DNA from: Ruegeria arenilitoris
GTDB lineage: Bacteria > Pseudomonadota > Alphaproteobacteria > Rhodobacterales > Rhodobacteraceae
Direction of reading: 5' to 3'
DNA length: 64,000 bases
Assembly (NCBI RefSeq): GCF_013030985.1
Contig: NZ_WPYP01000011.1
Span: 1 to 64,000, forward strand
Part shown: positions 15,757 through 29,120 of the stretch, one piece after another
How the letters are laid out: every line of letters begins with the position of its first letter
Numbering within the stretch: position 1 is the first letter of the stretch
The notes under the pieces: model-generated
The model's database searches: none
Seen by the model: the letters and a program-made list of their open reading frames with translations, nothing else
Told to the model about the DNA's origin: nothing
Translations under genes and position numbers: made by a program

Positions 15757-16271
15757 TCTCGCGTCAGGACGACAGCGGCTTTGACGATGCGTTGGAGGAT
15801 TTGACGGATATCCTGCACGCCTGCGTGCAGGATGGCGCCAGCATCGGGTTCGTCCTGCCGTTTACTCCGGATCAAGCCCGCGCCTATTGGCAAAACCGCG
15901 TGAGACCGGATGTGCAGACCGGTGCGCTGGATCTTTTCGTGGCCCGCGACAACGGTCGTATTCTAGGCACGGTGCAATTGATTCCGGCAGCGATGCCCAA
16001 CCAACCGCATCGCGCCGATGTGGGCAAATTGCTGGTCCACCCTGCGGCCCGACGGCGGGGGCTTGGGCGTGCTTTGATGGCCGCGCTTCAGGATCGGGCG
16101 ACCCAACTGAATCGAACCCTACTGGTGCTGGATACGCGCAGCACTGACCCGTCGCGCATCCTGTACCAAAGCATGGGGTTTCAGATCGCCGGAGAGATTC
16201 CGAACTATTGCCGCAACCCGTTCGAAGACCGGCTGGAGCCCACAACCTATATGTTCAAAGACCTGAGCTAG
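15753..16271 (+). CDS. GNAT-family N-acetyltransferase
   Basis: A 172-residue acetyl-CoA-dependent acyltransferase. The GNAT core is clear: GTVQLIP (beta4), then VGKLLVHPAARRRGLGRALM with the acetyl-CoA pyrophosphate-binding R/Q-x-x-G-x-G/A loop near residue 105, and LYQSMGFQIAGEIPNY at the C-terminus. The start ATG at 15753 overlaps the regulator stop (ATGA), giving translational coupling. The substrate is not predictable. It is convergent with the response-regulator gene, overlapping it by 4 nt. Confidence 0.9.
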   Translation: MISRQDDSGFDDALEDLTDILHACVQDGASIGFVLPFTPDQARAYWQNRVRPDVQTGALDLFVARDNGRILGTVQLIPAAMPNQPHRADVGKLLVHPAARRRGLGRALMAALQDRATQLNRTLLVLDTRSTDPSRILYQSMGFQIAGEIPNYCRNPFEDRLEPTTYMFKDLS

Positions 16272-16993
16272 GCCGAGCTTTTGCGCACATTAGCGGCAAA
16301 GCAATAGCCGATGCCGTGCACCGTCTTGATAAAGGTCGGCGCGGCGGGGTCGGGCTCGATCTTCTTGCGCAGCCGCGCCACATGCACGTCGATAGTCCGG
16401 TCACCGACAATGGTCTCGCGCCCACGGGCCTTGTCCAGCAGCTGATCGCGTGAGAACACCATGTGGGGGTTTGTCACAAAGGCCAGCAGCACATCAAATT
16501 CGGTGGTTGTCAAAGGCGTTGCCCCGGATGCACCAGCGGCGGTCAGGGTGCGCTCATTCACATTCAGCACCCAGTCACCAAATTGGACCTGAGGCATCTC
16601 GGTTTCGTTCGTTCCCTTCTCTTCGGGCCGAGCCCGGCGCAGAACGGTACGGATGCGGGCCAGAACCTCGCGCGCCTCAAACGGTTTGGTGATGTAGTCA
16701 TCGGCCCCGAACTCCAACCCGACAACCCGGTCAAAGATCTCATCCCGGCCCGAAAGAACGATGATCGGAATGTTGGAGTTGACCCGCAACTCGCGCGTGA
16801 TGTCGAACCCGTTGCGACCGGGCAGACCGATATCCAGCAGGATCAGATCGATCTTGGAGGAGTCCAGAACAGCGTCCATCGCATTGCCGTCTGCGGCACA
16901 GCTGACCCGGCAACCCTGCTTTTCAAGGTAGCGCTGCAGAAAGGACGTGACCTGCGGGTCATCATCGACGACAAGGATATGTTCTTTAACCAT
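16268..16993 (-). CDS. OmpR/TorR-type response regulator at the end of the Idr-like cluster
   Basis: A 241-residue two-component regulator: receiver domain (acidic pocket Asp10/Asp11, phosphoacceptor Asp54 in LLDIGLPG, Lys103 in YITKPF) and a winged-helix DNA-binding domain ending RTIDVHVARLRKKIE...IKTVHGIGYCF. Start at ATG 16993 (MVKEHILVVDDD); a longer frame to 17062 lacks receiver homology. It lies 95 nt downstream of moeA on the same strand. A hybrid sensor kinase gene sits at the other end of the cluster (26868-29120), so the two plausibly bracket and control the Mo-enzyme genes, as TorS/TorR do for TMAO reductase. The pairing is inference from position. Confidence 0.92.
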   Translation of the reverse strand: MVKEHILVVDDDPQVTSFLQRYLEKQGCRVSCAADGNAMDAVLDSSKIDLILLDIGLPGRNGFDITRELRVNSNIPIIVLSGRDEIFDRVVGLEFGADDYITKPFEAREVLARIRTVLRRARPEEKGTNETEMPQVQFGDWVLNVNERTLTAAGASGATPLTTTEFDVLLAFVTNPHMVFSRDQLLDKARGRETIVGDRTIDVHVARLRKKIEPDPAAPTFIKTVHGIGYCFAANVRKSSA

Positions 16994-17088
16994 AATCGAG
17001 TCCAGGCGGGCGTGTTGAGCTGGCGCGGAACAGTTGTAGCTGCTTCTGACCGCTTCATACAAGAACGTGGCTGACCTGTTCAGCAGCG

Positions 17089-18333
17089 TCAGAAACGCAG
17101 GAACTGCAACCCGTGGCCTTGCGGCAGCGTCTCGGTTTCGGCCGGAATGATGGCCAGACCATCCGCCTGCGCCAGCAACGCGACCCGACCGCTATAGGAT
17201 GCTGCCATCAGACGCAGCTGCGGGGTGCCGTCGGGCGAGGTGCCCTCGATCGTGACGGGGCGGTATTCCTGACGCCCTGCGCGACGCTCCAGCGGTTCGG
17301 CCAGAACCGCCTGTTCCGGCGTGTGCGGGGCGTGGTGCAGACCGGCCCTGCGTGCCATCATGTGCGATCCGATGATCTGCCAGGTCACATAGGCCGAGAC
17401 CGGATTGCCCGGCAGCCCGACATAGAGCGCATCGCCACGGCGGCCAAACATGATCGGTTTACCCGGCTTCATCGCCACTTTCATCACATCGGTCTGGCCG
17501 CCTATTTCGGCAAACAGGCGCGGCATGTGGTCTTCGTCGCCCACCGACACGCCCCCCGTGGTGACGATCAGATCGGAGGTATCGCAGGCCTCACGCAGCA
17601 CTTGCCCTAGCAGTTCTGGATCATCCTCAACCGGGCCTTTGTCGGTCAGGTCGATCCACGGCTTGTCCAGCAGCGCCCGCAGCATGTAACGGTTCGAGTT
17701 GTAAATCTGGCCGGGGCCCAATGCCTCACCGGGTTGGCGCAGCTCGCTGCCGGTTGAAAATATCGTGACCCTCAGCTTGCGATACACCTTGACCTCACCA
17801 TACCCGGCCGAGGCCAGCGCGGCGGCCTCGCGTGCGGTGATCTCGCATCCACGCCGCAGGATCGGGGCACCGGCCTTCAGGTCCTCGCCTGCGCGGCGGA
17901 TATGCTGGCCGGGCCTGGGACGGCGGGTAAAGCGGATGCCGTCGGCGGTGATCTCGCAATCTTCCTGCATCAGAACGGCATCGAAATCCGCTGGCACCAG
18001 AGCGCCGGTGAATATCCGCAACGCTGCACCTGCGGGCGCATCATGGGCACCGCTGTCCCCGGCGGCCACACGCCCGGCGACGGGTATGTCAAAGGTCGGA
18101 CCATCACCCAGTTCCGCCGTCCGAACCGCATAGCCGTCCATGGCCGAGTTATCGAAGGCCGGCATGTCCACCTTGCTGGTGCAGTCCTCGGCCAGCACTC
18201 GGCCGATGGCGTCGATCAGCGGCAACGCCTCGGTCCCGGCAACCGGATCGGCCACGGCCAGCCCCCGGGTCAGAGCTTCGGACACCGTCAAATACATTTG
18301 AGCGTGCCGGTCGCAGGCGCATCCATCAGCCAT
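17089..18333 (-). CDS. moeA: MoeA, molybdopterin molybdenumtransferase
   Basis: Inserts molybdenum into adenylylated molybdopterin. The 414-residue protein shows the MoeA blocks: FDNSAMDGYAVR near residue 62, GQHIRRAGEDLKAG, FSTGSELRQPGE, TTGGVSVGDEDH near 250, MKPGKPIMFG and GLPGNPVSAYV. A cysteine-rich N-terminus (MADGCACDRHAQ) precedes the family core. It overlaps the cupredoxin gene by 8 nt, so it belongs to the operon of the large Mo enzyme and is likely a dedicated cofactor supplier. Presence of MsrP elsewhere implies the genome has other Mo-cofactor genes. Confidence 0.95.
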   Translation of the reverse strand: MADGCACDRHAQMYLTVSEALTRGLAVADPVAGTEALPLIDAIGRVLAEDCTSKVDMPAFDNSAMDGYAVRTAELGDGPTFDIPVAGRVAAGDSGAHDAPAGAALRIFTGALVPADFDAVLMQEDCEITADGIRFTRRPRPGQHIRRAGEDLKAGAPILRRGCEITAREAAALASAGYGEVKVYRKLRVTIFSTGSELRQPGEALGPGQIYNSNRYMLRALLDKPWIDLTDKGPVEDDPELLGQVLREACDTSDLIVTTGGVSVGDEDHMPRLFAEIGGQTDVMKVAMKPGKPIMFGRRGDALYVGLPGNPVSAYVTWQIIGSHMMARRAGLHHAPHTPEQAVLAEPLERRAGRQEYRPVTIEGTSPDGTPQLRLMAASYSGRVALLAQADGLAIIPAETETLPQGHGLQFLRF

Positions 18334-18811
18334 TTTGATCCTCCAATTGTTCGAACAGCTCTTCAAACCCGGCCCGTTCGGCCTCACCCAATTTCGGCAG
18401 ATAGGCGCGCGCCTCTTCCAGGTTCGAGCTGGGGTCGCCCACAATCAGCAACATCACCATTCCATGTCGCCCATGCACGCGGCAACGGATGCCGTAGACG
18501 CCTTCCTTGTCGAAGGTCAGATCCATTTCGGGCTGGCCGCGGATCTCGAACGCGCGTGCACCCACCGGGATCATGCGGATGATCGAGGTCACCGTATGCC
18601 GCCCGGTCGAGCCCTTGAAACGGACGGTCGATCCGGCCGGGACCTGCAGCAGCTTCGGCTCGAACCGAAAGGCATGGGCCGGGGTGTCGGCATTCAGGTC
18701 TATGATCTGGTGCACCACGGCAACTTCGGGAATATCCTCGGCCTGTGCGGCGGGGGCAAAGGCCATCACCCCCGCAATGATCGCTGCACTCAGTTTCAGC
18801 GAAATTTTCAT
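18326..18811 (-). CDS. Pseudoazurin-like periplasmic cupredoxin
   Basis: Small blue-copper electron carrier, 161 residues with a Sec signal peptide (residues 1-24, AAQA cleavage). The type-1 copper ligands are visible: His72 in STGRHTVTS and Cys110-x2-His113-x4-Met118 in IRCRVHGRHGM, the pseudoazurin spacing. A C-terminal helical tail of about 35 acidic residues is unusual for plain pseudoazurin. It lies between the HEAT-repeat gene and moeA, overlapping moeA by 8 nt, so it may shuttle electrons to or from the Mo enzyme or the di-haem peroxidases of the same operon. That role is inference. Confidence 0.85.
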   Translation of the reverse strand: MKISLKLSAAIIAGVMAFAPAAQAEDIPEVAVVHQIIDLNADTPAHAFRFEPKLLQVPAGSTVRFKGSTGRHTVTSIIRMIPVGARAFEIRGQPEMDLTFDKEGVYGIRCRVHGRHGMVMLLIVGDPSSNLEEARAYLPKLGEAERAGFEELFEQLEDQNG

Positions 18812-18825
18812 CTGTCCCTCCGGGT

Positions 18826-21027
18826 TCAGGCCACCCGCGAGGGATTCCCCAGCAGATCGGCCAGCGCGCTGATCATCACTGGCCACTGGGCGCGGCGGTC
18901 TTCGTCGCGCAGCCCGGTCAGCAATTCCCGCCCAATTGTCACGACCGCGGGGGCGCTGTCATTGACATAGGTCACGATCCGCTGCTCGGGATTGGCCAGC
19001 AGGAAGGGCACGATGGTCGCCCCGGCCTGATCCGGCGCAGTTTCCGACAGCAGCCGCATCGCCGACTGACGCACCGGGGCCGAGACGTCATCCAGCAGGC
19101 TGCGCGCCACATCCGGGGTGCCATCCCATCTGGTCAGAATGTGCATGGCGTCGATGCGGAACGGGGTATCCCCGGTTTTCACCATCGCCCGCAGCTTGCC
19201 GCGTAGCGCATCCTGCGGTGGCAGATCAGCCTGTTGCAGCAGTTTCAGAGCCTGCAGCGAGAGGGCAGAATCCGTGTGTGACAAGCCCTGGGTGATCAGA
19301 TCGACCAGTTGGCTTTCATCCAGCTCCGCACCGTGACGCGCCACCGCGACGCCCAGCGCAGCAAAAGCCTGCTGCGCGACTTCAGTCTCGGGGTCCTTGG
19401 CGATCTGCGCCAGCATGACCTGCATCCCCGCCACCTCACCCAGCAGACGGATGGCGGACATACGGGTTTCGCGTTCCAGCGCCTCGGCATCGTCATCCAA
19501 TGCAACGCGGCGGCGTTTGGGATGACGGGTCGCCTTGGCCAACAATGCCTGTTCGCGCGGGCTCAGGGGTTGGACTTCGTCCTCCTCGGCCTCCTGCGTC
19601 ATTTCGGCGGCAATGGCGTCATGGCCGAGGATCGCGCCGAGGCTGGAGGTCGGGCCATTCTCGCCGCCCTCGGATACATCCAGACCGGCCGCTTCCAGCG
19701 CGGCGATGTCGGTTTGCGGCGTCTCGATGGGTTCTTCTTCCGAATCGGTCATCGGGGCCAAAGCAAAGGACAGCAGCAATTCGCGACCCTGCTGCTGGTT
19801 CACATGCGGGCGGTCCGCATCGGTGACGATCATTGCCAGAGAAGCCACGGCCTTCAGCCGCACCGACCGGAAAGGCGAACGGCAGGCGCGCTGCAACCAC
19901 TCTGCTGCTTCGCGCAAAGGCGAGGTCGCCAGCGCATCGACAATGGCCCATTGGATGCGCTCGGCCTTGAGATCATCCGCATCGACTGAAAACAGCGCAT
20001 TCAGCCGGTCGGCCACCAGTTCCGGGGCCAGCGCGGCCAGCAAGCCAAGCGCCTGCGCGGACACTTCGGGCTGTTGGCCGGTGGCGAGGAAGTCCAGCAC
20101 CTGCCAGCGCAGATCTTCCTGATCCACGATTGGCTGACTACGGTCCAAACGCTGGATCAACGCCAATTGCACCTTGGCACCAGGGTCGCGCATCATGCGA
20201 TCCAGCAGTTCGGGCTCCGAAAAACCGGACAGGTTCAACGCCGCGATGCGGATATCTTCGACCGCATCGGTCAGGGCCTGATCGACAAGCGCAGCATCTT
20301 TCGGCATCAGCGCCTGATAGGCGATCAGACGCACGGCCCCGTCCTTGTCGGTGACGGCCTTGCGCAGGATGGCTTCGGCCTCGGTCCCGCCAATTGAGGC
20401 CAGCGTGCGCAGGGCGCGGTGGCGCAAGCGGCGGTTGGAGGATAGGGTGAACACGCCCAAAGTCGGCACCGAAGGTTCCCCGATCCGGCCCAGCGCCTCG
20501 CAAGCCACATCCCCCAGTTCCTGCCCGTCTTCATCCATCAAGGCCATGACGATGGGTTCAATCGCCTCAGCGTCGCCCATCTGACCCAGCGCCTTGATCG
20601 CGGCGATCTGGGTATCGAGCCAATCGTCCCATTCGTCCTGATGCAATTCGTCTTCGTCCCAGGTGATCTCGTCCCCGCGTCCGGTCACAAGCGTGCGCAA
20701 ATAGGGCGTGGCATCGTCGGATTTCAGTTCGGCCAAGGCCGTCACACAGGCCAGCTTCACCTCTCCGCAGGGATCGTGGATCAGGTTTTCCAGCAGTTGC
20801 GGCGCGGCCTCGTGCACGCCCAGCGCGCCCAGCGCTTGGGCCGCGTCCTGGCGCACATCTTCATCGTCATCCAACAGCGCCTCGACCAGCGCGGGGCTAT
20901 CACCTGCGCCAATGGCGGTCAGGGCCTGAATGGCGCGCAGGCGGATCACGTCATATTCGGATTTTGCGTATTCGGAAAACAGGCCGGTAGCCTCATCGCG
21001 CAAAGCGGTATCGGAATGCATGTTCAT
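18826..21027 (-). CDS. Large HEAT-repeat protein of the Idr-like cluster
   Basis: A 733-residue, acidic, all-helical protein without signal peptide, built of many HEAT/PBS-lyase-type repeats, for example EYDVIRLRAIQALTAIG, DVRQDAAQALGALG and EVKLACVTALAEL in the first 130 residues, and further repeats to the C-terminus. A charged low-complexity insert (about residues 440-520) splits the array. Such scaffolds bind partner proteins; here, between a molybdoenzyme and its probable electron carrier, an assembly, cofactor-loading or Tat-proofreading role is plausible but unproven. Start ATG 21027 (MNMHSD) has no strong ribosome site; 21021 is an alternative. A 165-nt gap with two hairpins separates it from the large subunit gene. 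Confidence 0.85.
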   Translation of the reverse strand: MNMHSDTALRDEATGLFSEYAKSEYDVIRLRAIQALTAIGAGDSPALVEALLDDDEDVRQDAAQALGALGVHEAAPQLLENLIHDPCGEVKLACVTALAELKSDDATPYLRTLVTGRGDEITWDEDELHQDEWDDWLDTQIAAIKALGQMGDAEAIEPIVMALMDEDGQELGDVACEALGRIGEPSVPTLGVFTLSSNRRLRHRALRTLASIGGTEAEAILRKAVTDKDGAVRLIAYQALMPKDAALVDQALTDAVEDIRIAALNLSGFSEPELLDRMMRDPGAKVQLALIQRLDRSQPIVDQEDLRWQVLDFLATGQQPEVSAQALGLLAALAPELVADRLNALFSVDADDLKAERIQWAIVDALATSPLREAAEWLQRACRSPFRSVRLKAVASLAMIVTDADRPHVNQQQGRELLLSFALAPMTDSEEEPIETPQTDIAALEAAGLDVSEGGENGPTSSLGAILGHDAIAAEMTQEAEEDEVQPLSPREQALLAKATRHPKRRRVALDDDAEALERETRMSAIRLLGEVAGMQVMLAQIAKDPETEVAQQAFAALGVAVARHGAELDESQLVDLITQGLSHTDSALSLQALKLLQQADLPPQDALRGKLRAMVKTGDTPFRIDAMHILTRWDGTPDVARSLLDDVSAPVRQSAMRLLSETAPDQAGATIVPFLLANPEQRIVTYVNDSAPAVVTIGRELLTGLRDEDRRAQWPVMISALADLLGNPSRVA

Positions 21028-21046
21028 ATCAAGCTGCCATGTCTGC

Positions 21047-21178
21047 GGTTGGGAAAGGTTGGGGAAAGTGGAAGACAGGTTTCCCAACCGAAACCTGCCT
21101 TCCAGGTGAACCGGGGGGCCGGTTCAAGGCCCCTTCTGCAGTGGGACCGAACCCGTGGGGCGGCATGGCGTCCGCCCC
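21047..21178 (-). promoter_or_regulatory. Two hairpins in the gap between the Mo-enzyme and HEAT genes
   Basis: GGTTGGGAAA (21047-21056) pairs with TTTCCCAACC (21080-21089), and GGGGCGG (21157-21163) pairs with CCGCCCC (21172-21178). The GC-rich one follows the large-subunit stop by about 15 nt and lacks a T-run, so it looks more like an mRNA-processing or partial-termination site than a full stop. This would lower expression of the downstream genes relative to the enzyme. Confidence 0.45.
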
Positions 21179-21192
21179 CCGGAAAGCTGTCA

Positions 21193-23874
21193 TCAGGCGA
21201 TGTCGCGCGGTGCAAAGGACATCGTGCGGAACGAGGTCTTGTAGGGGCTCGGACCCAGTTTCCGCAGTTTGGCAACGCCCATCTTGTAGTTGTAGTTGCC
21301 GCTGATCCAGTCGACGATCCGACCCTCAAGCGCGTTGGCCGGCTGCTGCATGTGCAGGAAGTCCATGTAAACAACGCTTTTCTTGATGGCGGGCGTGACC
21401 ATGGCCACGGCGGTGATTGCCGCTTTGGTCAGTTCGATATGCCCGTTCTCCATCAGTTTCGAGAACTGGAAGTCATCGCCTTCCACACCCAGCAGCGTAG
21501 TCTTGTTGCCCGGAACCCGTTCCGAATAGACCATCACATAGTCACCGCTTTCGATGCCACGCTCGGCCGCATCGTCGGGGTGAATCTCAACCCAGTTTTC
21601 CGGCCAGCGCTGCACGATATACGGGCGGCGGCGGTCGTCGAAGCCGGACTGCCAACGTTCGTTGATCCGGCCGGATGTGGCCCAAAGCTCGCCTTCTTCC
21701 TTGTTAGGTTTCAGCCATTCCCAATAGTCCGAGAACAGACCCCAGGGCGATTTCTGGATGTTGCACTTGCCGGTCTGGCTGTTGAAATGCGTCAGCTTCT
21801 TGTTGAACACATCCTTACCTGCGGCGCCGGTATCGGGCAGCGTACGGGTCGTGTCGTGCAGACGCTTGGTTTCAATCAGCGTGACCCCATCGGCGTCCAG
21901 CATGACCGGGCATTGCACACCGTCGGTGCCAAACTCACGGACCTTCTGGTGCAGGCCTTTACCTTCCATCTTGGCCAGACGATAGACCGCGTGGAAGTCC
22001 TTGCGCGACCCGCGGGTAAAGCGCACGGCCTCTTCGGCGACCTCGTTCGAATTCTGCCAGTCGAACCCGTCAAAACCCATCCTCTGCGCCAGTTGCGCGA
22101 TGATCCACCAGTCGGGTTTCGCCGCACCGGGGGCATCATAGAACTTCTGATACAGGCGCAGGCGACGTTCGCCATTGGCCCGCAAGAAGTCCTCTTCACC
22201 CCAGGTCGCTGCGGGGAACACGATGTCGGCGTAGCGGTTGCCGATCGGATCCTGCAGATAGATGTCCTGGTTGATCACCACCATACCGCCGCTGTCGGCG
22301 CGGGCCTTCAACGTGTCGATCATCTCTTGCTTGTCGAAAGAGGCGATCTGGTTCGGGTTGCGGACGGTGAGCTCCTCGAACTTGTCGGCCAGTTGCTGCG
22401 ATCCGCACATGGACTGGATCCATGTGGTGCCGATCACATGGGCCATGCGAGTATGACCTGCGATCAGATACCGGTCGGTATCCATGGCGCGGCGACGGCG
22501 ACCCGGCAGTTTCTCGGGCGATTTGTTGCGCGGGTATTTCCCGCCCTTCACACCGCCCCGCTGGTGACCACCGGCCCGGCCAATGACCTGACCCGGACGA
22601 CCGCCACAGCCACAGATGATGCCCAGCGCGGAAATCGCCTGTGTGTTGCCGGTGTTGTTGGACCAGTAGAACCCTTTCTCGATCATGATCGAGGTTTTCG
22701 GGCGCGAGCCGTCTTCCTTGGGTTTGGCAAGCCATTCGGCAGCGGTGTAGATCTTCTGCACATCGATCTCGGCCATGGCCGCAGCAGTTTCGGGCGCGAA
22801 TTCGTCCTGCGACAGCAGCCACTCTTTCCAGTCTTCAAACCCCTTGGTCTGGAACTTGCCCCAGGTCGTGCGCCACTGCCATGGCGTGTTCCTTGTGCCC
22901 TGACCGAAGCCGGATGAGCTTTCCCACTTGTTGTTGACCCATTTCTGAATCCAGTCGCTGTCTTCCCAGCCATTTTCCACGATGACGCGGGCGATGGCGT
23001 TGACGACCAGCAGGTCAGTGCCGGGCAGAACGTCGATATGCAGGCCGCCCATCTTTTCCGCATGGGCCACACCGGCGGACCGGCGCGGGATCAGATAGAT
23101 TTCCTTCTGACCGTTCTGCATCCCTTTCATCATCCACTGGGTATAGAGGATGGTCTTGGTCTCATACGGGTCGGTGCCGCAAACCAGAAGGGTTTCCGCA
23201 TCCCGCCAGTCCTCATACGACGGGCCGAAATTGTCGAAACCCGCATCCCGGAAACCGGGGGTCGAGGTCACGTCGGACGGCGTGTCATGGAAGGTGAAGT
23301 TCGCGGTGTTGATATGGCGCAGCGCGTATTTCGAGATCGCATAGGTGTTCTCGATATACTGATAGCTGAAGGTCTTCACGCCATAGGCATTGGTGCCGTG
23401 TTTGGCGATCACATGATTGCCCACCTCAGCCGCCACATCCAGCGCCAGATCCCACGGGACCGGCATCAAGGTGCCATAGATCCGCATCAGCGGCGTCTTC
23501 AGTCGGTCGCGTGTCGGTGTCTGCGGGTTATAGCATTTCTGCGCGATACACCCGCCCCGCAAGGAACTGTCGCCGTCGGTGTTGACGTATTGCGTGTCCT
23601 TGTCGGGGATGATCACTACATGGTGCGGCTGGCCCTTGTGCAGAACGATATTGTGCTGGTTCGGCGCGACCCAGGCACCCAGCGGTGCAACGGGGAAATC
23701 CTCGCCAAATGCGTTTTCGTCCGCGGAGGGGCCACCGGATTTGGCCGTCACGGGCCAGCGATAGACTTTGTAACCACAGGCCACGATGCAGTAATCGCAG
23801 GCAGTCGAAATGACCTCGGCGCCTTTGGGCGGCAGCGGGACGTTGGTTTCGGGTACGTAATACGGGGTTGCCAT
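21193..23874 (-). CDS. Arsenite-oxidase-family molybdopterin oxidoreductase large subunit, IdrA-like (probable iodate reductase)
   Basis: An 893-residue DMSO-reductase-superfamily enzyme of the AioA/IdrA branch. Cys26-x2-Cys29-x3-Cys33 (CDYCIVACGYKVYRW) plus GDSSLRGG (Ser103/Ser104 where most relatives have a fourth Cys) indicates a [3Fe-4S] cluster, as in AioA. Later blocks AGGHQRGGVKGG, FPAATWGEEDFLRANGERR and the C-terminal NYNYKMGVAKLRKLGPSPYK also fit. No signal peptide: export would be by hitch-hiking with the Tat-exported Rieske subunit encoded 14 nt upstream. Two di-haem peroxidase genes and no arsenic genes accompany it, as known for iodate reductase. The AioA substrate residues are only partly kept: the GGHQ stretch is present, but the SECHATREMG/GE region is replaced (PGFRDAGFDN). 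Substrate is unproven. Confidence 0.85.
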   Translation of the reverse strand: MATPYYVPETNVPLPPKGAEVISTACDYCIVACGYKVYRWPVTAKSGGPSADENAFGEDFPVAPLGAWVAPNQHNIVLHKGQPHHVVIIPDKDTQYVNTDGDSSLRGGCIAQKCYNPQTPTRDRLKTPLMRIYGTLMPVPWDLALDVAAEVGNHVIAKHGTNAYGVKTFSYQYIENTYAISKYALRHINTANFTFHDTPSDVTSTPGFRDAGFDNFGPSYEDWRDAETLLVCGTDPYETKTILYTQWMMKGMQNGQKEIYLIPRRSAGVAHAEKMGGLHIDVLPGTDLLVVNAIARVIVENGWEDSDWIQKWVNNKWESSSGFGQGTRNTPWQWRTTWGKFQTKGFEDWKEWLLSQDEFAPETAAAMAEIDVQKIYTAAEWLAKPKEDGSRPKTSIMIEKGFYWSNNTGNTQAISALGIICGCGGRPGQVIGRAGGHQRGGVKGGKYPRNKSPEKLPGRRRRAMDTDRYLIAGHTRMAHVIGTTWIQSMCGSQQLADKFEELTVRNPNQIASFDKQEMIDTLKARADSGGMVVINQDIYLQDPIGNRYADIVFPAATWGEEDFLRANGERRLRLYQKFYDAPGAAKPDWWIIAQLAQRMGFDGFDWQNSNEVAEEAVRFTRGSRKDFHAVYRLAKMEGKGLHQKVREFGTDGVQCPVMLDADGVTLIETKRLHDTTRTLPDTGAAGKDVFNKKLTHFNSQTGKCNIQKSPWGLFSDYWEWLKPNKEEGELWATSGRINERWQSGFDDRRRPYIVQRWPENWVEIHPDDAAERGIESGDYVMVYSERVPGNKTTLLGVEGDDFQFSKLMENGHIELTKAAITAVAMVTPAIKKSVVYMDFLHMQQPANALEGRIVDWISGNYNYKMGVAKLRKLGPSPYKTSFRTMSFAPRDIA

Positions 23875-23888
23875 GATACCGTTTCCCC

Positions 23889-24458
23889 TTATGCAATCAG
23901 GTTGTCGTAGCGGCCATAGATCAGGCCGAACATGCCAACGGCGTAGATGTCATCACCGTCCAGTTCCAAAAGGACCTGCGGCAGCGACTGGTAGGCCTGC
24001 CCCGAAACGAGGATGCCGTGCCGTGTCACGTCATAGGTGGACAGGTGCAGCGGGCATGGACCCAGCACCTTGTGATCCGCTTTGTAGGTGTCGTAGAGCG
24101 ATCCGCCCTGATGCGTACAGGTCAGGTTGAACGCCACCACATCCTTTTGCGGACCGATGCCGCCGCCGCTTTCCACGCCGGTCTTGACCAGGATCGAGTC
24201 CGAATAGTCGCCCTCATCCGGGTAATAGAACTCGACCGGGACATCCTGCTCCAGCTCGGACAGTTTGCCGATCAGCTTGCGCGGATAGGTGGACACGAGG
24301 GCGGGCACCTGTTCGGCCTGACCGTGGCGGGTGGGCATGGCCACCATCACGGCAAAGGTCGTGGCACCTGAGGCGAACAGGAACTGGCGGCGGTTCACGG
24401 TGCAGGCCTTCTTGGCCTCGCCCGAACAGCTGCATCCGGTTGCGTTATGATCTGTCAT
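23889..24458 (-). CDS. Rieske [2Fe-2S] small subunit, IdrB/AioB-like, Tat-exported
   Basis: A 189-residue Rieske protein with a twin-arginine leader (VNRRQFLFASG, residues 22-31) preceded by an unusual cysteine-bearing start (GCSCSGEAKKAC). Cluster ligands are Cys114/His116 (CTHQGG) and Cys135/His138 (CPLHLS). The cysteines that normally form the Rieske disulfide are Gly and Leu here, so a lowered redox potential is expected. The C-terminus GQAYQSLPQVLLEL...GLIYGR matches the AioB family closely. Partner of the large subunit: electrons would pass between its cluster and a periplasmic carrier. It lies 5 nt after the peroxidase gene and 14 nt before the large subunit gene. Confidence 0.92.
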   Translation of the reverse strand: MTDHNATGCSCSGEAKKACTVNRRQFLFASGATTFAVMVAMPTRHGQAEQVPALVSTYPRKLIGKLSELEQDVPVEFYYPDEGDYSDSILVKTGVESGGGIGPQKDVVAFNLTCTHQGGSLYDTYKADHKVLGPCPLHLSTYDVTRHGILVSGQAYQSLPQVLLELDGDDIYAVGMFGLIYGRYDNLIA

Positions 24459-24463
24459 GACGC

Positions 24464-25651
24464 TTACTCCTCTGTGGCAGCCGCAGGCAGCGGCTGGTAA
24501 TCCGGCAGGTCGGGTTCCTCGATCAGGATTTCCTCGCCGGACAGGGATTTCAGGAAGGCCACCAGATCCGATTTCTCCTGATCATTCAGACCAAGGGGTT
24601 GGATCAGCGGGGATTTGTTATCCGAGAACTCATTCTCACCGCCGCCCTGGTTGTAGAATTCAACCACATCCTCGAGCGTCGCCAACATGCCGTTATGCAT
24701 GTAGGGTTCGGTATAGAGGGTGTAACGCAGGGACGGTGTGCGGAACTTGCCCTTGTCGGCCTTTTCCTTGGTGCGGAAATAGAAGCCGGGGTCGTCCTTG
24801 GTGTGGCGATACATCTCTTCGGTCGAGCCTTTGGCATACAGCTCATACCGGAAGGTAACCTGCGCCAGACCGTCATCCTGCCAACCGTCATAGGCGGGCA
24901 CGCCGGTGTTGTAGTATTTCTCATCCGACAGCAGCGCGCCGTTGTGGCATTCGGAACATTGCGCCTTGCCGGTGAACAGTTCCAGCCCGCGTTTTTGTTC
25001 CTCGGTCAGCGCCGCATCATCTCCGCGCAGATAATTGTCGAAGGGGGTATCGGTCTGAACGATGGTCCGTTCAAACGCAGCGATGGCCCGCCATGCGTTA
25101 CTGACGCGCGGCCACTGATCGCCGAAGACGTCGTTGAAGCGTTCGACGTATTCGGGGACAAAGGCCAGACGGGCCTCCATCATGTCGGCCTCGCCGTTCC
25201 CGGCGACCGCACCGCCTGCGGCGGATTTGGCCTGGCTCTCAAGGCTCTTGGATGAGCCCGCCCAGAACAGTTTGCCGTAATAGGCCGAGTTCACGATGGT
25301 CTGGCTGTTGCGCCAGTGGGTCGTGCCGGGATAGCCGAATGAGATCGGTGCCTCGACATCCCACCCGATATAGGGGTTGTGACAGGCCGAACACGGGGTC
25401 GACGGGTTACCGCCCAGACGCGGATCGAAGAACAGCATCTTGCCCAGTTCGATCTTGGCATCGGTTTGGGGGTTGTCCAGCGGGATGGGCGGTTCGCCCA
25501 GCGCCACCAATGGCGCATCCGGATCGGGATCTGCCCCGCCGACACCGGCCTCAATCTCCATGCTGGTTTCTGCAAAGGCGTGCGAACCGAGGGCGGCAAC
25601 CAGAGCAGCGGTGGCGATTGTACCTGAAAGGTAAGACTTAAGGTCTTTCAT
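24464..25651 (-). CDS. Di-haem cytochrome c peroxidase / MauG-like protein (IdrP-like)
   Basis: A 395-residue periplasmic protein with a Sec signal peptide (residues 1-27, SHAFA) and two haem c sites: Cys87-x2-Cys90-His91 (CSACH) and Cys232-x2-Cys235-His236 (CSECH). Surrounding blocks KMLFFDPRLGG, FRTPSLRYTLYTEPYMHNG and LVAFLKSLSGEE are classic for bacterial di-haem peroxidases. Compared with its upstream paralogue it is longer and has an acidic ending. In iodate reducers two such proteins (IdrP1/IdrP2) are thought to remove H2O2 formed during reduction. The gene is 11 nt after its paralogue and 5 nt before the Rieske gene. Confidence 0.93.
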   Translation of the reverse strand: MKDLKSYLSGTIATAALVAALGSHAFAETSMEIEAGVGGADPDPDAPLVALGEPPIPLDNPQTDAKIELGKMLFFDPRLGGNPSTPCSACHNPYIGWDVEAPISFGYPGTTHWRNSQTIVNSAYYGKLFWAGSSKSLESQAKSAAGGAVAGNGEADMMEARLAFVPEYVERFNDVFGDQWPRVSNAWRAIAAFERTIVQTDTPFDNYLRGDDAALTEEQKRGLELFTGKAQCSECHNGALLSDEKYYNTGVPAYDGWQDDGLAQVTFRYELYAKGSTEEMYRHTKDDPGFYFRTKEKADKGKFRTPSLRYTLYTEPYMHNGMLATLEDVVEFYNQGGGENEFSDNKSPLIQPLGLNDQEKSDLVAFLKSLSGEEILIEEPDLPDYQPLPAAATEE

Positions 25652-25662
25652 GGGTCCACTCC

Positions 25663-26769
25663 TCAGTTTGTCGCGTCTTGCCAGTTCTCGATCGGCGCAT
25701 AGTCCGTATCGATACTCTCGGCGACGAATTCCGGGCCGGTCAGCGGCTCGCCGGACAGGGCCTTGAGGAAGGCCACCAGCTGCGCTTGCTCGGTCTCGGT
25801 GAGGCCAAGCGGCTTGATGCGCGGATCCTTGTTTTCATCGTCGCCGCCACCGGCGTTGTAGAAGGCCACCACATCCTCGAGCGTCGCCAGCGTGCCGTTG
25901 TGCATATACGGCGCGGTGTAGGTCAGCTCGCGCAGCGTGGGGGTCATGAAAGTGCCGAACGTGTCGGCGGTGTGGGTGCGGATATAAGCGCCCGGATCGG
26001 CGCGCAGGTTCATATAATTCGCAACGCCCAGGAATTTCATCATCGCCACAAAGGTGATGTGACGTTCCGGTGTCGCCCAGATATCGGGGTTGTCGCCGAC
26101 GCCAATATTGTGCGGCAGGTCATCGGTGAACCGTCTGCCAGCGTGGCAGGAGTTACAGCCGTTTGCCTGGAACAGCTCATAACCCGCCTTGGCCTCGTCC
26201 GACATCTCGCTGGTATCGAACGGAGCCCCGCGCGAGATCAGCGTTTTCAGATATTCGGGAATCGCGTTGCGGACGCCGCCATTCGAGGGCTCGCCAAATC
26301 CGGCAGCTTCAAACATCTCGACATAGACCGGGTCCTGCTTGATGCGTTCCTGCATCAGACGCATGTCCATGTTCATCGAATAGGTCTCGGTGATGCTTTC
26401 GCGGGTCACGTCATTCAGGTTGGTGCCGATGCGCCCGTCATGGAACCACGCGGCGCGTTTGGCGCTGTTGATCAGCGTTGGCACGTTGCGGAAGTGCAGG
26501 TTGCCCGCATAGGCATCCGACAGGGCCTGCCCGTCGGTGAAGCCGTTCTCCGGCTGGTGGCAGCTGGCGCAGGACAGCTCGGTATCGCCGGAAAGTCTTG
26601 GATCAAAAAACAAACGCTTGCCAAGAGCCGCCTTGGCTGGGTCGAACTCTATGGCTTCTACCGGGCCCGGCTCATCGGCCTGGGCCTGGTGTACCGGTAA
26701 CGCAGCGCAGATCGTCAGCAATGAAACTGTCGACAGCGCCGAGAACCATGTTCTGGCTTTGGTCATCAT
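25663..26769 (-). CDS. Second di-haem cytochrome c peroxidase / MauG-like protein (IdrP-like), first of the structural genes
   Basis: A 368-residue periplasmic protein, signal peptide at residues 1-31 (QAQA) and haem sites Cys67-x2-Cys70-His71 (CASCH) and Cys205-x2-Cys208-His209 (CNSCH). It has the same peroxidase blocks as the neighbour (KRLFFDPRLSGD; PTLRELTYTAPYMHNG; LVAFLKALSGEP). The two are paralogues in tandem rather than a split gene. Start ATG 26769 (a second ATG follows at 26766) lies behind AAAGGGG. It is 98 nt downstream of the kinase stop, the only gap in the operon roomy enough for a promoter upstream of the structural genes. Confidence 0.93.
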   Translation of the reverse strand: MMTKARTWFSALSTVSLLTICAALPVHQAQADEPGPVEAIEFDPAKAALGKRLFFDPRLSGDTELSCASCHQPENGFTDGQALSDAYAGNLHFRNVPTLINSAKRAAWFHDGRIGTNLNDVTRESITETYSMNMDMRLMQERIKQDPVYVEMFEAAGFGEPSNGGVRNAIPEYLKTLISRGAPFDTSEMSDEAKAGYELFQANGCNSCHAGRRFTDDLPHNIGVGDNPDIWATPERHITFVAMMKFLGVANYMNLRADPGAYIRTHTADTFGTFMTPTLRELTYTAPYMHNGTLATLEDVVAFYNAGGGDDENKDPRIKPLGLTETEQAQLVAFLKALSGEPLTGPEFVAESIDTDYAPIENWQDATN

Positions 26770-26867
26770 CTGAAAGCCCCTTTATCGCTATTCCGACCAC
26801 ACGGGTTGACCGAGGACCGGCTGAGCAAACCTTAAAGGGCAGATGTTTCGTGGTGATTTGATCCAGG

Positions 26868-29120
26868 TTAAGGTCTGTGAAGAGATGTTAAATTTTGTTT
26901 CGAAGCCTGGCTCAGTGACGTGCGGATAATGCGCGCAAGACTTTGGACATCAACGGGTTTCTGAACGCGCACGGTCGAGTCTCCGTCATCGGGCGTTTCC
27001 GCATCGTCAAAGTAGCTGCTGACCAAAATAGTCGGGATATCGGGCCGCAGGGTCCGCGCCGCACTGATCAGATCGGTGCCGGTCAGCCCCGGCATCATCA
27101 GGTCGGTCAAAATGACATCATAGCTATCGGGTGCCGTACGGAATGCCTCCAGCGCCCGTTGCGGATCGGAGTAGGCCTCGACCCGATAGCCATAGCGGGT
27201 CAGCAACCGGCGCGTGACATACAGAACGTTTTCATCGTCATCGACCAGCAGAACGTGTTCATCCCCGGCCACCGCGCGCAGTTCGGCCTGCTGTTCGGGG
27301 CTGAGTGCGGGCATCATCGGGTAGAACAGGCTGAACCGGGTGCCCTTGCCGGGTTCCGAGTGCAACTCGACCCGACCATGAGATTCCTCGACACTGTTAT
27401 GCACGATGGTCAACCCCAGGCCGGTGCCCTTACCCACCGGTTTGGTCGAGAAGAACGGCTCGAACACCTTTTGCTGTACCTCGTCGCTCATCCCCGGCCC
27501 GGTGTCGGTGACATCCAGACGGATCACGCCGATCGCCTCGTCCGGCAAGTCATCGAGCGCATTGTCATCCGCCCGGCTGATCCGCAGCACCACCTCGCCG
27601 GGCTGGTCGCCCATCGCCTCGAACGCATTGTGGCACAGGTTCAGCAGGGTCTGGAAAAACAGGGTGGTGTCAAAATCGGAAAACGCCGCGTCAATCTCAA
27701 CATCAAAGCGGGTCTCAATGCTGGGCGGGGCCGAGACCCTGATCAACTCCAGCGCCTCTTGCGTGGCTTTCACCAGATCACCGCGCTGCGGGTTGCGGGG
27801 GCGCTGGCGGGCAAAGGTCAGCATCTTGCGCACCAGTGCCTGCGCGCGCCGCGCCGCAATCCGGATATGGCTGACCGAGGTCTGGACGTCCTCATTCCCG
27901 TCCGCGTCCAGTTCGATCAGATCGGCGTTGCCGATCACGCTCATCAGCACATTGTTGAAATCATGCGCAACCGAGCCGGCCAGAATGCTGACGGCCTCCA
28001 TCTTCTGCACCTGGGCGAATTGTTCGCGGGTGCGACGGGTTTCGGTAATGTCTTCGCCGATACCAATGTAATGCGTGACCGAGCCGTTCTGATCCACCAG
28101 CGGGAAAATCGCCGTCGAAACCCAGTAATGCGCGCCATCCTTGCGCAGGTTCCGGAACACGCCATACCAGCTTTGACCCTGTTTCAGCCGCCCCATCAGG
28201 TCCTTGTAGACCGCCTGCCCGGAATACCCCGACTGCAGCATTTTGGGCGTATGGCCATAGACCTCGTCCGCCGTATACCCGCTGAGGTCAAAGAATTTGC
28301 GATTGGCGTATTCGATATTCAGATCGGTATCGGTGATCAGGATCGAGGTCGGGCTTTGTTCCACCGCGCGGGCCAGTTTGCGTTCGGCCAGTTCAACCTG
28401 CTCGCGCAAGGTCAGCTCGGCCTTCAGACGTCTGTTGGTGCGCAGGATGTTGGCGATCAGCAAGGTGGTCAGAATGGCGACCACACCGACAAGAACGATC
28501 AGCCCGACCAGCAGGACCGAGAAGTTACGCACCAGCCGCTCGCCATCCGAAAACGCCCGCACCATGCCCGAGAGGCTACGATCCCGCTCTTCGACCCACA
28601 GGTTTTCAAGCGCCGCCAAAGCCGCCAGCGCGCCACTGTCATCGACCCGGACACGGGTGTCGATCTGTTCGGCGGTCTGGCCTGCGGCAATACCCTCCTC
28701 AATCAGGGGGATGTTGCCGGTATATTCCAGGGCAACGTCTTCGATCTGCCGCAGGGCGTCCAGTTCCACCTGCGACGGGCCCGAGTTACGATAGGCCTGA
28801 ATCGTCCCCAGTAAGCGGGCAGATTGCTGGCGCAGAATCGGGCCATAATTCGGGTCCTGCCGCAGCACGTAGTTCTTGAAGTTGTGAATCAGACCGCCAT
28901 AGCCGAAATCCGCACGGATGTCGGATATCCAATAGCCGCGCGGCGTGGTTTCCACTGAATAGCTGTGCCAGGCCTGTCGCATCTCGCCAATGCGATTCCC
29001 GGTTTCGCGCGACATATACAGGAACACCGACAGGATGATCACCAGCGCGATGCCGATTGCAAAGGCCACGGCAAGCGACCGTCTTGGATAACCCTCGACT
29101 ACTTCGGGGACGTCTTTCAT
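26868..29120 (-). CDS. Hybrid sensor histidine kinase (membrane sensor-PAS-HK-REC) heading the Idr-like cluster
   Basis: A 750-residue membrane kinase: span 1 (residues 15-37), a helical periplasmic sensor region of about 160 residues with FGYGGLIHNFKNYVLR near 72-87, span 2 (200-225), a PAS domain (about 250-360), the phosphoacceptor His386 (GSVAHDFNN), ATPase N/G boxes (NLCHNAFEAMG; DTGPGMS; GKGTGLGL), and a C-terminal receiver domain with Asp673 (LTDLMMPG). No Hpt domain is visible. Start ATG 29120 follows TCAGGG; the frame extends upstream without kinase features. It lies 85 nt after nadC and 98 nt before the first peroxidase gene, on the same strand. Probable partner: the OmpR-type regulator at 16268-16993. 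Confidence 0.92.
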   Translation of the reverse strand: MKDVPEVVEGYPRRSLAVAFAIGIALVIILSVFLYMSRETGNRIGEMRQAWHSYSVETTPRGYWISDIRADFGYGGLIHNFKNYVLRQDPNYGPILRQQSARLLGTIQAYRNSGPSQVELDALRQIEDVALEYTGNIPLIEEGIAAGQTAEQIDTRVRVDDSGALAALAALENLWVEERDRSLSGMVRAFSDGERLVRNFSVLLVGLIVLVGVVAILTTLLIANILRTNRRLKAELTLREQVELAERKLARAVEQSPTSILITDTDLNIEYANRKFFDLSGYTADEVYGHTPKMLQSGYSGQAVYKDLMGRLKQGQSWYGVFRNLRKDGAHYWVSTAIFPLVDQNGSVTHYIGIGEDITETRRTREQFAQVQKMEAVSILAGSVAHDFNNVLMSVIGNADLIELDADGNEDVQTSVSHIRIAARRAQALVRKMLTFARQRPRNPQRGDLVKATQEALELIRVSAPPSIETRFDVEIDAAFSDFDTTLFFQTLLNLCHNAFEAMGDQPGEVVLRISRADDNALDDLPDEAIGVIRLDVTDTGPGMSDEVQQKVFEPFFSTKPVGKGTGLGLTIVHNSVEESHGRVELHSEPGKGTRFSLFYPMMPALSPEQQAELRAVAGDEHVLLVDDDENVLYVTRRLLTRYGYRVEAYSDPQRALEAFRTAPDSYDVILTDLMMPGLTGTDLISAARTLRPDIPTILVSSYFDDAETPDDGDSTVRVQKPVDVQSLARIIRTSLSQASKQNLTSLHRP

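Follow-up and report, generated by a model that had tools for sequence, protein, structure and literature searches.

Organization of the locus

The stretch of Ruegeria arenilitoris DNA analysed here (contig NZ_WPYP01000011.1, positions 1 to 64,000; 64,000 nt, hereafter referred to as the window) harbours nine open reading frames (ORFs), all on the minus strand, between positions 16268 and 29120. These comprise a putative iodate reductase (idr) core, idrP2-P1-B-A, together with genes for a hybrid sensor kinase, a HEAT-repeat protein, a cupredoxin, MoeA and an OmpR-family response regulator (Table 1). An earlier note, made from the sequence of the window alone, had listed the same genes and proposed an Idr-type system, possibly a variant with its own copper carrier, assembly protein and sensor system. 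The gene set was borne out, and all nine labels were upheld by Pfam and NCBIfam searches. In transcription order, the junctions measure 98, 11, 5, 14, 165, 14, -8 (an overlap) and 98 nt, such that the tight spacing described in the note (overlaps or gaps of 5-14 nt) holds at five of the eight junctions.

The nine-gene order, for which a survey of related genomes had been suggested, was sought among the 80 best contig loci of 495 relatives found, where the number of evaluable loci varies with the available flank. The complete set was shown to recur in 11 of the 52 related loci with sufficient flank, all 11 of which are titled Ruegeria (in locus L068, the kinase is split over several ORFs), indicating that the arrangement is not due to chance. 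The best contig matches to the window IdrA were those of R. arenilitoris HKCCD9148 (100 %) and R. atlantica HKCCD9103 (99 %). A pattern scan for promoters and terminators returned 3 and 9 candidates, respectively, compared with 3.5 and 10.4 in shuffled sequences.

Table 1. Predicted features of the idr cluster, with positions in the window and the evidence for each
Feature	Position	Strand	Evidence
Hybrid sensor kinase, 750 aa (periplasmic sensor domain, PAS, HisKA, HATPase, REC)	26868..29120	-	Pfam; GYGGxIHNFKNYVLR-type sensor motif
Di-haem peroxidase-like protein, 368 aa, IdrP2 by position	25663..26769	-	CCP_MauG; two CXXCH
Di-haem peroxidase-like protein, 395 aa, IdrP1 by position	24464..25651	-	CCP_MauG; two CXXCH; MbnH/MauG-type NCBIfam matches under cut-off
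IdrB, Rieske protein with twin-arginine motif NRRQFL	23889..24458	-	CXHX18CX2H; AioB relatives in PDB; TIGR02694
IdrA type II, large molybdenum (Mo) subunit, 893 aa, 100.4 kDa, no signal peptide by eye	21193..23874	-	Rieske_3/[3Fe-4S] and Molybdopterin domains; C26/C29/C33/S104; tree
Structured idrA-HEAT spacer	21028..21192	-	Minimum free energy (MFE); shuffles; Ruegeria consensus
HEAT-repeat protein, 733 aa, isoelectric point 4.48, no signal peptide by eye	18826..21027	-	Pfam; synteny; profile searches; AlphaFold
Exported pseudoazurin-like cupredoxin (Cys110, His113, Met118, His72)	18326..18811	-	Pfam/NCBIfam; PDB matches; export signal by eye
MoeA, third paralogue of the genome	17089..18333	-	Pfam; remains between nadC and GNAT in relatives lacking idr at that site
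OmpR-family response regulator, GTG start, 240 aa	16268..16990	-	Pfam

Assignment of the core genes to the Idr family

Gene order, sequence motifs and phylogeny support a placement of the core genes in the Idr family rather than among the arsenite oxidases (Aio). The order idrP2-P1-B-A, present in the window, is called characteristic of iodate reductases in the article text of PMC10989891, and among the related loci IdrB is encoded upstream of IdrA in 77 of 77, and two di-haem genes are present in 67 of 67, that could be evaluated. The [3Fe-4S] motif of the window IdrA, CX2CX3CX70S (C26, C29, C33 and S104), is the one quoted for IdrA of Azoarcus DN11 (text of PMC10149662). IdrB combines the NRRQFL motif with a Rieske motif, CXHX18CX2H, the spacing of which is 18 in 95 of 97 rows of the IdrA branch designated type II below and 18 or 19 in six rows of its sister branch, type I, compared with 13 or 15 in four AioB proteins. 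IdrP1 and IdrP2 of the window, each with two CXXCH motifs, are 37 % identical, as are the two di-haem peroxidases of strain TC-10 (PMC8801600, in the text).

A quick maximum-likelihood tree was constructed from 44 rows (5 AioA, 8 type I and 31 type II), reduced from 105 at 90 % identity with none of the type I rows dropped. Each of the three groups was found on one side of a branch with values of 99-100 in the Shimodaira-Hasegawa-like approximate likelihood ratio test (100 for the split of AioA from Idr; 99 for type II). The window IdrA belongs to the sister branch to type I, in which Azonexus and Thiothrix plasmid copies stood in for proven IdrA. The earlier note had stated that a large subunit grouping inside AioA would speak against its proposal; the window protein was instead placed apart from all five AioA rows, and the Idr-type identity is upheld by this tree together with the gene order and the IdrA and IdrB motifs.

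Two points weigh against this assignment. The tree lacks bootstrap values and carries warnings of long branches, namely those separating AioA from type I and those of the type II rows L054 and L141. In addition, the NCBIfam arsenite oxidase models score above their cut-offs (TIGR02693, 403.1 versus 359.05 bits; TIGR02694, 109.3 versus 95.65 bits) and, as the nearest solved structures to the window IdrA and IdrB are AioA and AioB, the cluster might be read as encoding an arsenite oxidase (AioBA) plus extra genes. However, TIGR02693 and TIGR02694 fail to tell Aio from Idr, since the annotated Idr locus of the Azonexus plasmid carries the same names; the Idr-type proteins of the window exceed both cut-offs and would therefore be named 'arsenate reductase (azurin)' by annotation pipelines, as seen at that locus. 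The substrate site of A. faecalis AioA, which we take to consist of His195, Glu203, Arg419 and His423, is altered in the window IdrA, where Ser204 occupies the Glu position while the other three residues are kept; both the Glu and an Asn of the AioA site are replaced, and the complete Aio signature is absent. These residues, the tree and the Rieske spacing led us to reject an arsenite oxidase identity despite the NCBIfam call. The two CCP_MauG genes of the window, compared with no annotated di-haem peroxidase gene in four AioA plasmid loci, also argue against such an enzyme, as do the three nearest genes on each side of the cluster (NAD-synthesis genes on one side; GNAT, helix-turn-helix and solute-binding protein genes on the other), leaving it a highly improbable explanation. 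An AlphaFold model of IdrA (mean predicted local distance difference test (pLDDT) score of 50.7) was left unused.

Two IdrA branches and the substrate site

IdrA is divided into two sister branches, newly designated here as type I and type II, which are about 50 % identical to each other. In total, 22 of 390 order-level genomes were found to carry IdrA, 16 at 76-100 %, five at 50-52 % and one, a fragment, at 47 % identity. Type II is mostly alphaproteobacterial, with 67 % copies also present on a Vibrio plasmid and in genome G403 of the same phylum; alphaproteobacterial copies at 57-62 % (G857, G914 and G977), which lie outside the tree, were counted as type II by identity and, for two of them, also by their HEAT neighbour. 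Type I includes the Azonexus and Thiothrix plasmid copies, which are located beside genes for a c-type cytochrome, MoaA and a sigma-54 regulator. Published descriptions of the clade of proven iodate respirers mention two-component, c551 and moaA genes (PMC8801600), and that of DN11 a sigma-54 regulator (PMC10149662). The branches appear to be exchanged between close relatives, as a single genus (g12, 21 genomes) holds both, with two full type I idrA genes (G012 and G051) and one broken type II copy (G766, 75-76 %). The latter consists of two pieces with a stop (contig C56), and locus L050 (G155) retains a lone 444-aa C-terminal part of IdrA. A Tepidamorphaceae metagenome-assembled genome (MAG; L091) encodes a second IdrA-profile ORF upstream of its type II cluster, on the opposite strand.

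The position aligned to Glu207 of NT-26 AioA (Glu203 in A. faecalis) distinguishes the three groups: Glu was found in all 5 AioA rows, Asp in all 8 type I rows and Ser in 91 of the 92 type II rows. The 92 are all different sequences, close strains included, and the one row lacking Ser has Ala. The G914 protein, outside these 92 rows, also has Ser. This position is one of 62 near-fixed differences between the two types, while His196, Asp197, Arg433 and His437 are common to both. AioA, type I and type II all share two His and one Arg at the site.

The sensor system anticipated by the earlier note was also upheld, its sensor domain being common to alphaproteobacterial type I clusters. Compared with the periplasmic domain of the window kinase, that of 23 among 24 further type II kinases is 32-41 % identical, and that of the five alphaproteobacterial type I kinases 33-42 %. 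In a 61-genome sample, this domain was detected in six of six idr genomes, covering both IdrA types, and weakly in 2 of 55 others. The presence of the same sensor domain beside type II enzymes and alphaproteobacterial type I enzymes points to one signal for both types in these bacteria, presumably iodate. Against a common signal, other sensor domains were found in type II locus L109 (14 %) and in the type I clusters of Azonexus (17 %) and Thiothrix (20 %). Of 52 evaluable loci, 29 have no kinase nearby. Where a cluster outside Ruegeria does encode a kinase, its gene is mostly adjoined by a divergently oriented gene for a homologue (39-46 %) of the OmpR-type regulator. In L068 and L227 (G787; taken as one contig), the sensor kinase is in pieces while idrP2P1BA and the HEAT gene are apparently whole, the response regulator of L227 being broken too.

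The Asp-to-Ser change at the substrate site could mean another substrate and thereby weighs against an iodate reductase. A type II enzyme that reduces (or oxidizes) bromate, chlorate or another oxyanion, with Ser and the HEAT gene marking a functional split from type I, would be consistent with the group-specific residue, its place among the 62 near-fixed differences and the limited identity between the types; yet the operon is the same P2-P1-B-A arrangement, with its di-haem pair and IdrB in every evaluable locus, the four other site residues are the same in both types, and alphaproteobacterial type I clusters have the same sensor domain, making such a split unlikely. According to the text of Kine et al. 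(PMC11445184), iodate is reduced by three marine, aerobic alphaproteobacteria that carry idrABP1P2, and in static cultures of Roseovarius azorensis iodate lifts idr transcripts 59-102-fold. The published mass of Roseovarius azorensis IdrA (99.4 kDa) suits five Rhodobacterales type I rows (98.9-99.8 kDa) better than 17 type II rows (99.6-101.7 kDa), and the Roseovarius azorensis masses taken together (IdrA 99.4, IF-2 89.1 and SecA 99.9 kDa) fit none of 15 genomes, IF-2 having been computed in 11 and SecA in 14 of these. No experimentally tested strain, those of PMC11445184 included, could thus be tied to type II, which weighs against the reading of type II as an iodate reductase.

The HEAT-repeat gene as a near-constant companion of alphaproteobacterial type II idrA

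In Alphaproteobacteria, the HEAT gene can be counted as the fifth core gene of the type II idr operon. It was found after idrA in 79 of the 80 related loci, the remaining locus (L107) not being evaluable with 348 nt downstream; an automatic count gave 76 of 78 with two loci not evaluable, its misses (L103 and L129) being start-coordinate artefacts, while in L120 the HEAT protein is visible only up to residue 73. When a profile built from 57 HEAT sequences was run against the 390 order-level genomes, it matched 16, which are exactly the 16 type II genomes and always carry the match beside idrA, and none of the 374 others. Among 289 class-level genomes, type II IdrA is present in 11, and the profile matched 10 of these and no other genome; in the exception, G857, idrA is cut by a contig end. 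The order sample, the class sample and the 80 loci overlap, and related genomes are not independent. The earlier note had rightly listed the gene; its status as the only constant extra gene went beyond what a single sequence could reveal.

Because the HEAT gene is present in clusters without a kinase, cupredoxin or MoeA gene nearby, it appears to be tied to the enzyme itself. The AlphaFold model of the protein is all-helical, with two confident halves joined by a low-confidence linker (mean pLDDT 89.3), and 12 residues are invariant, ten of which lie within the first 140 (including D55, D57, R59, W123, W133, W136 and Q140). Redox enzyme maturation proteins of the NarJ/TorD/DmsD type provide a dedicated cytoplasmic check on Mo enzymes before export by the twin-arginine translocation (Tat) pathway, and to our knowledge no dedicated chaperone has been described for Idr or Aio. 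IdrA, which has no signal of its own and is thought to leave the cytoplasm together with IdrB (text of PMC8692401), would thus be finished in the cytoplasm. We infer that the HEAT protein is a dedicated cytoplasmic assembly factor for IdrA(B), since it represents a cytoplasmic helical scaffold tied to the enzyme and not to the regulators, the carrier or MoeA. Perchlorate-reductase clusters include a dedicated chaperone (text of PMC10746228), which by analogy is a precedent for the proposed role, not for the fold. The role would resemble that of the NarJ/TorD/DmsD-type proteins, from which the HEAT protein differs by its repeat fold, acidity and length of 733 aa; none of the nine window proteins gave a TorD/NarJ-type Pfam match.

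Several observations weigh against such a link. The HEAT gene is 13.5 kb from idrA, behind a cytochrome module, in G1061 and on another contig in G1056. It was not found after idrA in eight of eight type I loci, nor in the two non-alphaproteobacterial type II loci (Vibrio and G403), where Vibrio gave an uncounted 10.4-bit sub-threshold match on the other strand. The protein evolves fast (21-40 % identity outside Ruegeria, compared with 76-91 % for IdrA), and its physical interaction with IdrA is a proposal. HEAT proteins have many roles, Foldseek retrieved only generic HEAT scaffolds (PP2A-A, CAND1 and karyopherins) and no functional lead, and NCBIfam gave weak NblB/bilin-lyase-type matches under cut-off, all of which would leave room for a regulator, a haem or cytochrome maturation helper for IdrP1/P2, or a structural partner. 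Of these, a regulator is at odds with the 29 of 52 evaluable loci that lack a nearby kinase, and a haem-maturation helper with type I clusters, which have the same di-haem proteins and no HEAT gene, while the apparent absence of a signal peptide also speaks against these roles; one of them nevertheless represents a real possibility, somewhat short of an even chance.

The 165-nt spacer between idrA and the HEAT gene was predicted to be structured, with an MFE of -74.2 kcal/mol (z -2.49; 1 of 200 shuffles equally good). The Ruegeria alignment contains three conserved hairpins, one of about 15 bp in the window. A hairpin at or below -15 kcal/mol (60-nt windows) was present in 72 of 78 loci, and the observed folding value was reached by none of 20 dinucleotide shuffles in 46 of the 75 loci compared. 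The Ruegeria hairpins have no classic T-run, whereas relative L079 has a terminator-like T-run. This structure suggests that HEAT output is held below IdrA output, which would fit an assembly factor and not a structural subunit.

Cupredoxin and MoeA

The copper carrier proposed in the earlier note was supported as a pseudoazurin-like protein, whereas the proposed assembly protein, taken to be MoeA, is borne out in part only, as its gene, a third paralogue, also stands without idr in relatives. The type-1 Cu ligands of the cupredoxin are present as CRVHGRHGM at 110-118 (Cys-X2-His-X4-Met) with His72, and PDB pseudoazurins were matched with an E-value of about 1e-15; the score for the pseudoazurin model TIGR02375 is under its cut-off (69.1 versus 109.85). 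Within the Ruegeria set (L061-L075, one a MAG), the cupredoxin gene stands in line in all 14 loci that could be evaluated, compared with 3 of 38 others; it lies within the flank of 9 of 38 evaluable loci outside this set, and also beside the Vibrio and G403 clusters. A role as electron donor replacing cytochrome c551 is plausible.

Three moeA paralogues are present in the window genome, while the idr-less genomes G120 and G135 hold only the other two and the idr-less G027 and G278 retain the third. As moeA is located downstream of idr in only 2 of 38 evaluable non-Ruegeria loci and persists where idr is deleted (see below), MoeA as an obligatory idr part is weakened.

Proposed mechanism and relation to known systems

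The cluster is probably an inducible periplasmic iodate-reductase operon of the alphaproteobacterial type II branch. The mechanism outlined here takes its family-level steps from the Idr literature, the remainder being our own proposal. The periplasmic sensor kinase would detect iodate or its stress products, upon which the OmpR-type regulator would turn on the operon. IdrA would receive bis-molybdopterin guanine dinucleotide (bis-MGD) and a [3Fe-4S] cluster in the cytoplasm, with MoeA providing the Mo-cofactor and the HEAT protein perhaps helping to check IdrA and to pair it with IdrB, before the folded IdrAB reaches the periplasm on the Tat signal of IdrB. There, IdrAB would draw electrons from the quinol/bc1 pool via the pseudoazurin-like cupredoxin and reduce iodate to hypoiodous acid/iodide, while IdrP1/IdrP2 would clear hydrogen peroxide, as proposed for the family. 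The structured RNA 3' of idrA probably limits HEAT synthesis relative to that of IdrA. In aerobic Ruegeria, by analogy with the strains described in the text of PMC11445184, the system would likely serve as a low-oxygen electron sink and not as growth-supporting respiration.

The window cluster resembles the idrABP1P2 systems of Denitromonas IR-12, Pseudomonas SCT, Azoarcus DN11 and Aromatoleum TC-10 in its P2-P1-B-A order, its [3Fe-4S] and Rieske motifs, a Tat signal confined to IdrB, a pair of di-haem peroxidases of about 37 % mutual identity and a nearby two-component system. It differs from the type I rows in an IdrA only about 50 % identical, in Ser for Asp at the site and in the HEAT gene after idrA, and from the Azonexus and Thiothrix plasmids, the stand-ins for proven strains, in having a cupredoxin for the c-type cytochrome, MoeA for MoaA and an OmpR-type for a sigma-54 regulator. 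Arsenite oxidase AioBA has azurin or cytochrome c as its partners, in common with the kind of carrier proposed here. AioBA shares the fold family and cofactors of the window enzyme; its loci examined lack peroxidase genes, and its active-site residues, Rieske spacing and clade are distinct. The putative idr clusters of aerobic marine Alphaproteobacteria described in the text of PMC11445184, whose hosts reduce iodate at low oxygen, belong to the same ecological group; the main text of that article does not mention HEAT, cupredoxin, azurin, moeA, a chaperone or a histidine kinase. More generally, no description of a HEAT gene in idr clusters, nor of the cupredoxin as one of their parts, was found in the article text searched, a scope outside which lie figures, supplements and subscription papers, where a drawn but unlabelled gene is possible.

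Ocean iodide is set by iodate-to-iodide reduction, and iodide removes sea-surface ozone (text of PMC11445184). Type II clusters are spread through marine Alphaproteobacteria, and the published parts list, idrABP1P2, omits the HEAT gene, which is present there wherever the DNA is readable. If the HEAT protein is indeed an assembly factor, it would fill the chaperone gap, serve as a metagenome marker separating the Idr branches, be required for heterologous production and constitute a testable new part of the ocean iodine cycle. With Glu, Asp or Ser at a single active-site position, the AioA/IdrA family also lends itself to a direct test of how the substrate is chosen. A bolder reading would make the HEAT protein the first of a new class of chaperones dedicated to the maturation of bis-MGD molybdoenzymes and fixed to a single enzyme lineage; in that lineage, type II Idr with Ser204, the active site would have been re-tuned to a distinct range of oxyanions or to a distinct oxygen tolerance in surface seawater. 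This reading is speculative and rather doubtful in its entirety.

Deletion remnants and neighbouring modules in relatives

In three relatives (G780, G782 and G278; loci L223, L224 and L225), nadC is followed by moeA and the GNAT gene, and idr is absent at the site; genome-wide absence of idrA was searched for only in G278. Remnants of the HEAT 3' end lie between nadC and moeA in all three, with cupredoxin 3' sequence before moeA in each and an additional weak match to the latter in G782. Because these remnants remain, the idr-less sites are regarded as deletions, and their matching break points suggest one shared deletion. The idea of the cluster as a recently arrived island at the window site is therefore unsupported; the remnants suggest, from sequence, that the cluster was once present and then lost while moeA was kept. 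On a replicon of Ruegeria sp. AD91A (L259:4001-5651), a HEAT 3' end, a cupredoxin remnant and an intact moeA occur elsewhere, with no IdrA match on that replicon.

Some type II clusters extend further downstream, beyond idrA and the HEAT gene. Among the 80 loci, a carboxypeptidase-regulatory-like exported protein is encoded there in 15, a cytochrome bd subunit I-like membrane protein in 12, and c-type cytochromes bearing an ethylbenzene-dehydrogenase-type domain in 11. This downstream gene set, present in none of the 15 Ruegeria-set loci, is exemplified by L088:10877-17519 and L278:2832-15970 and possibly constitutes a quinol-linked electron module.

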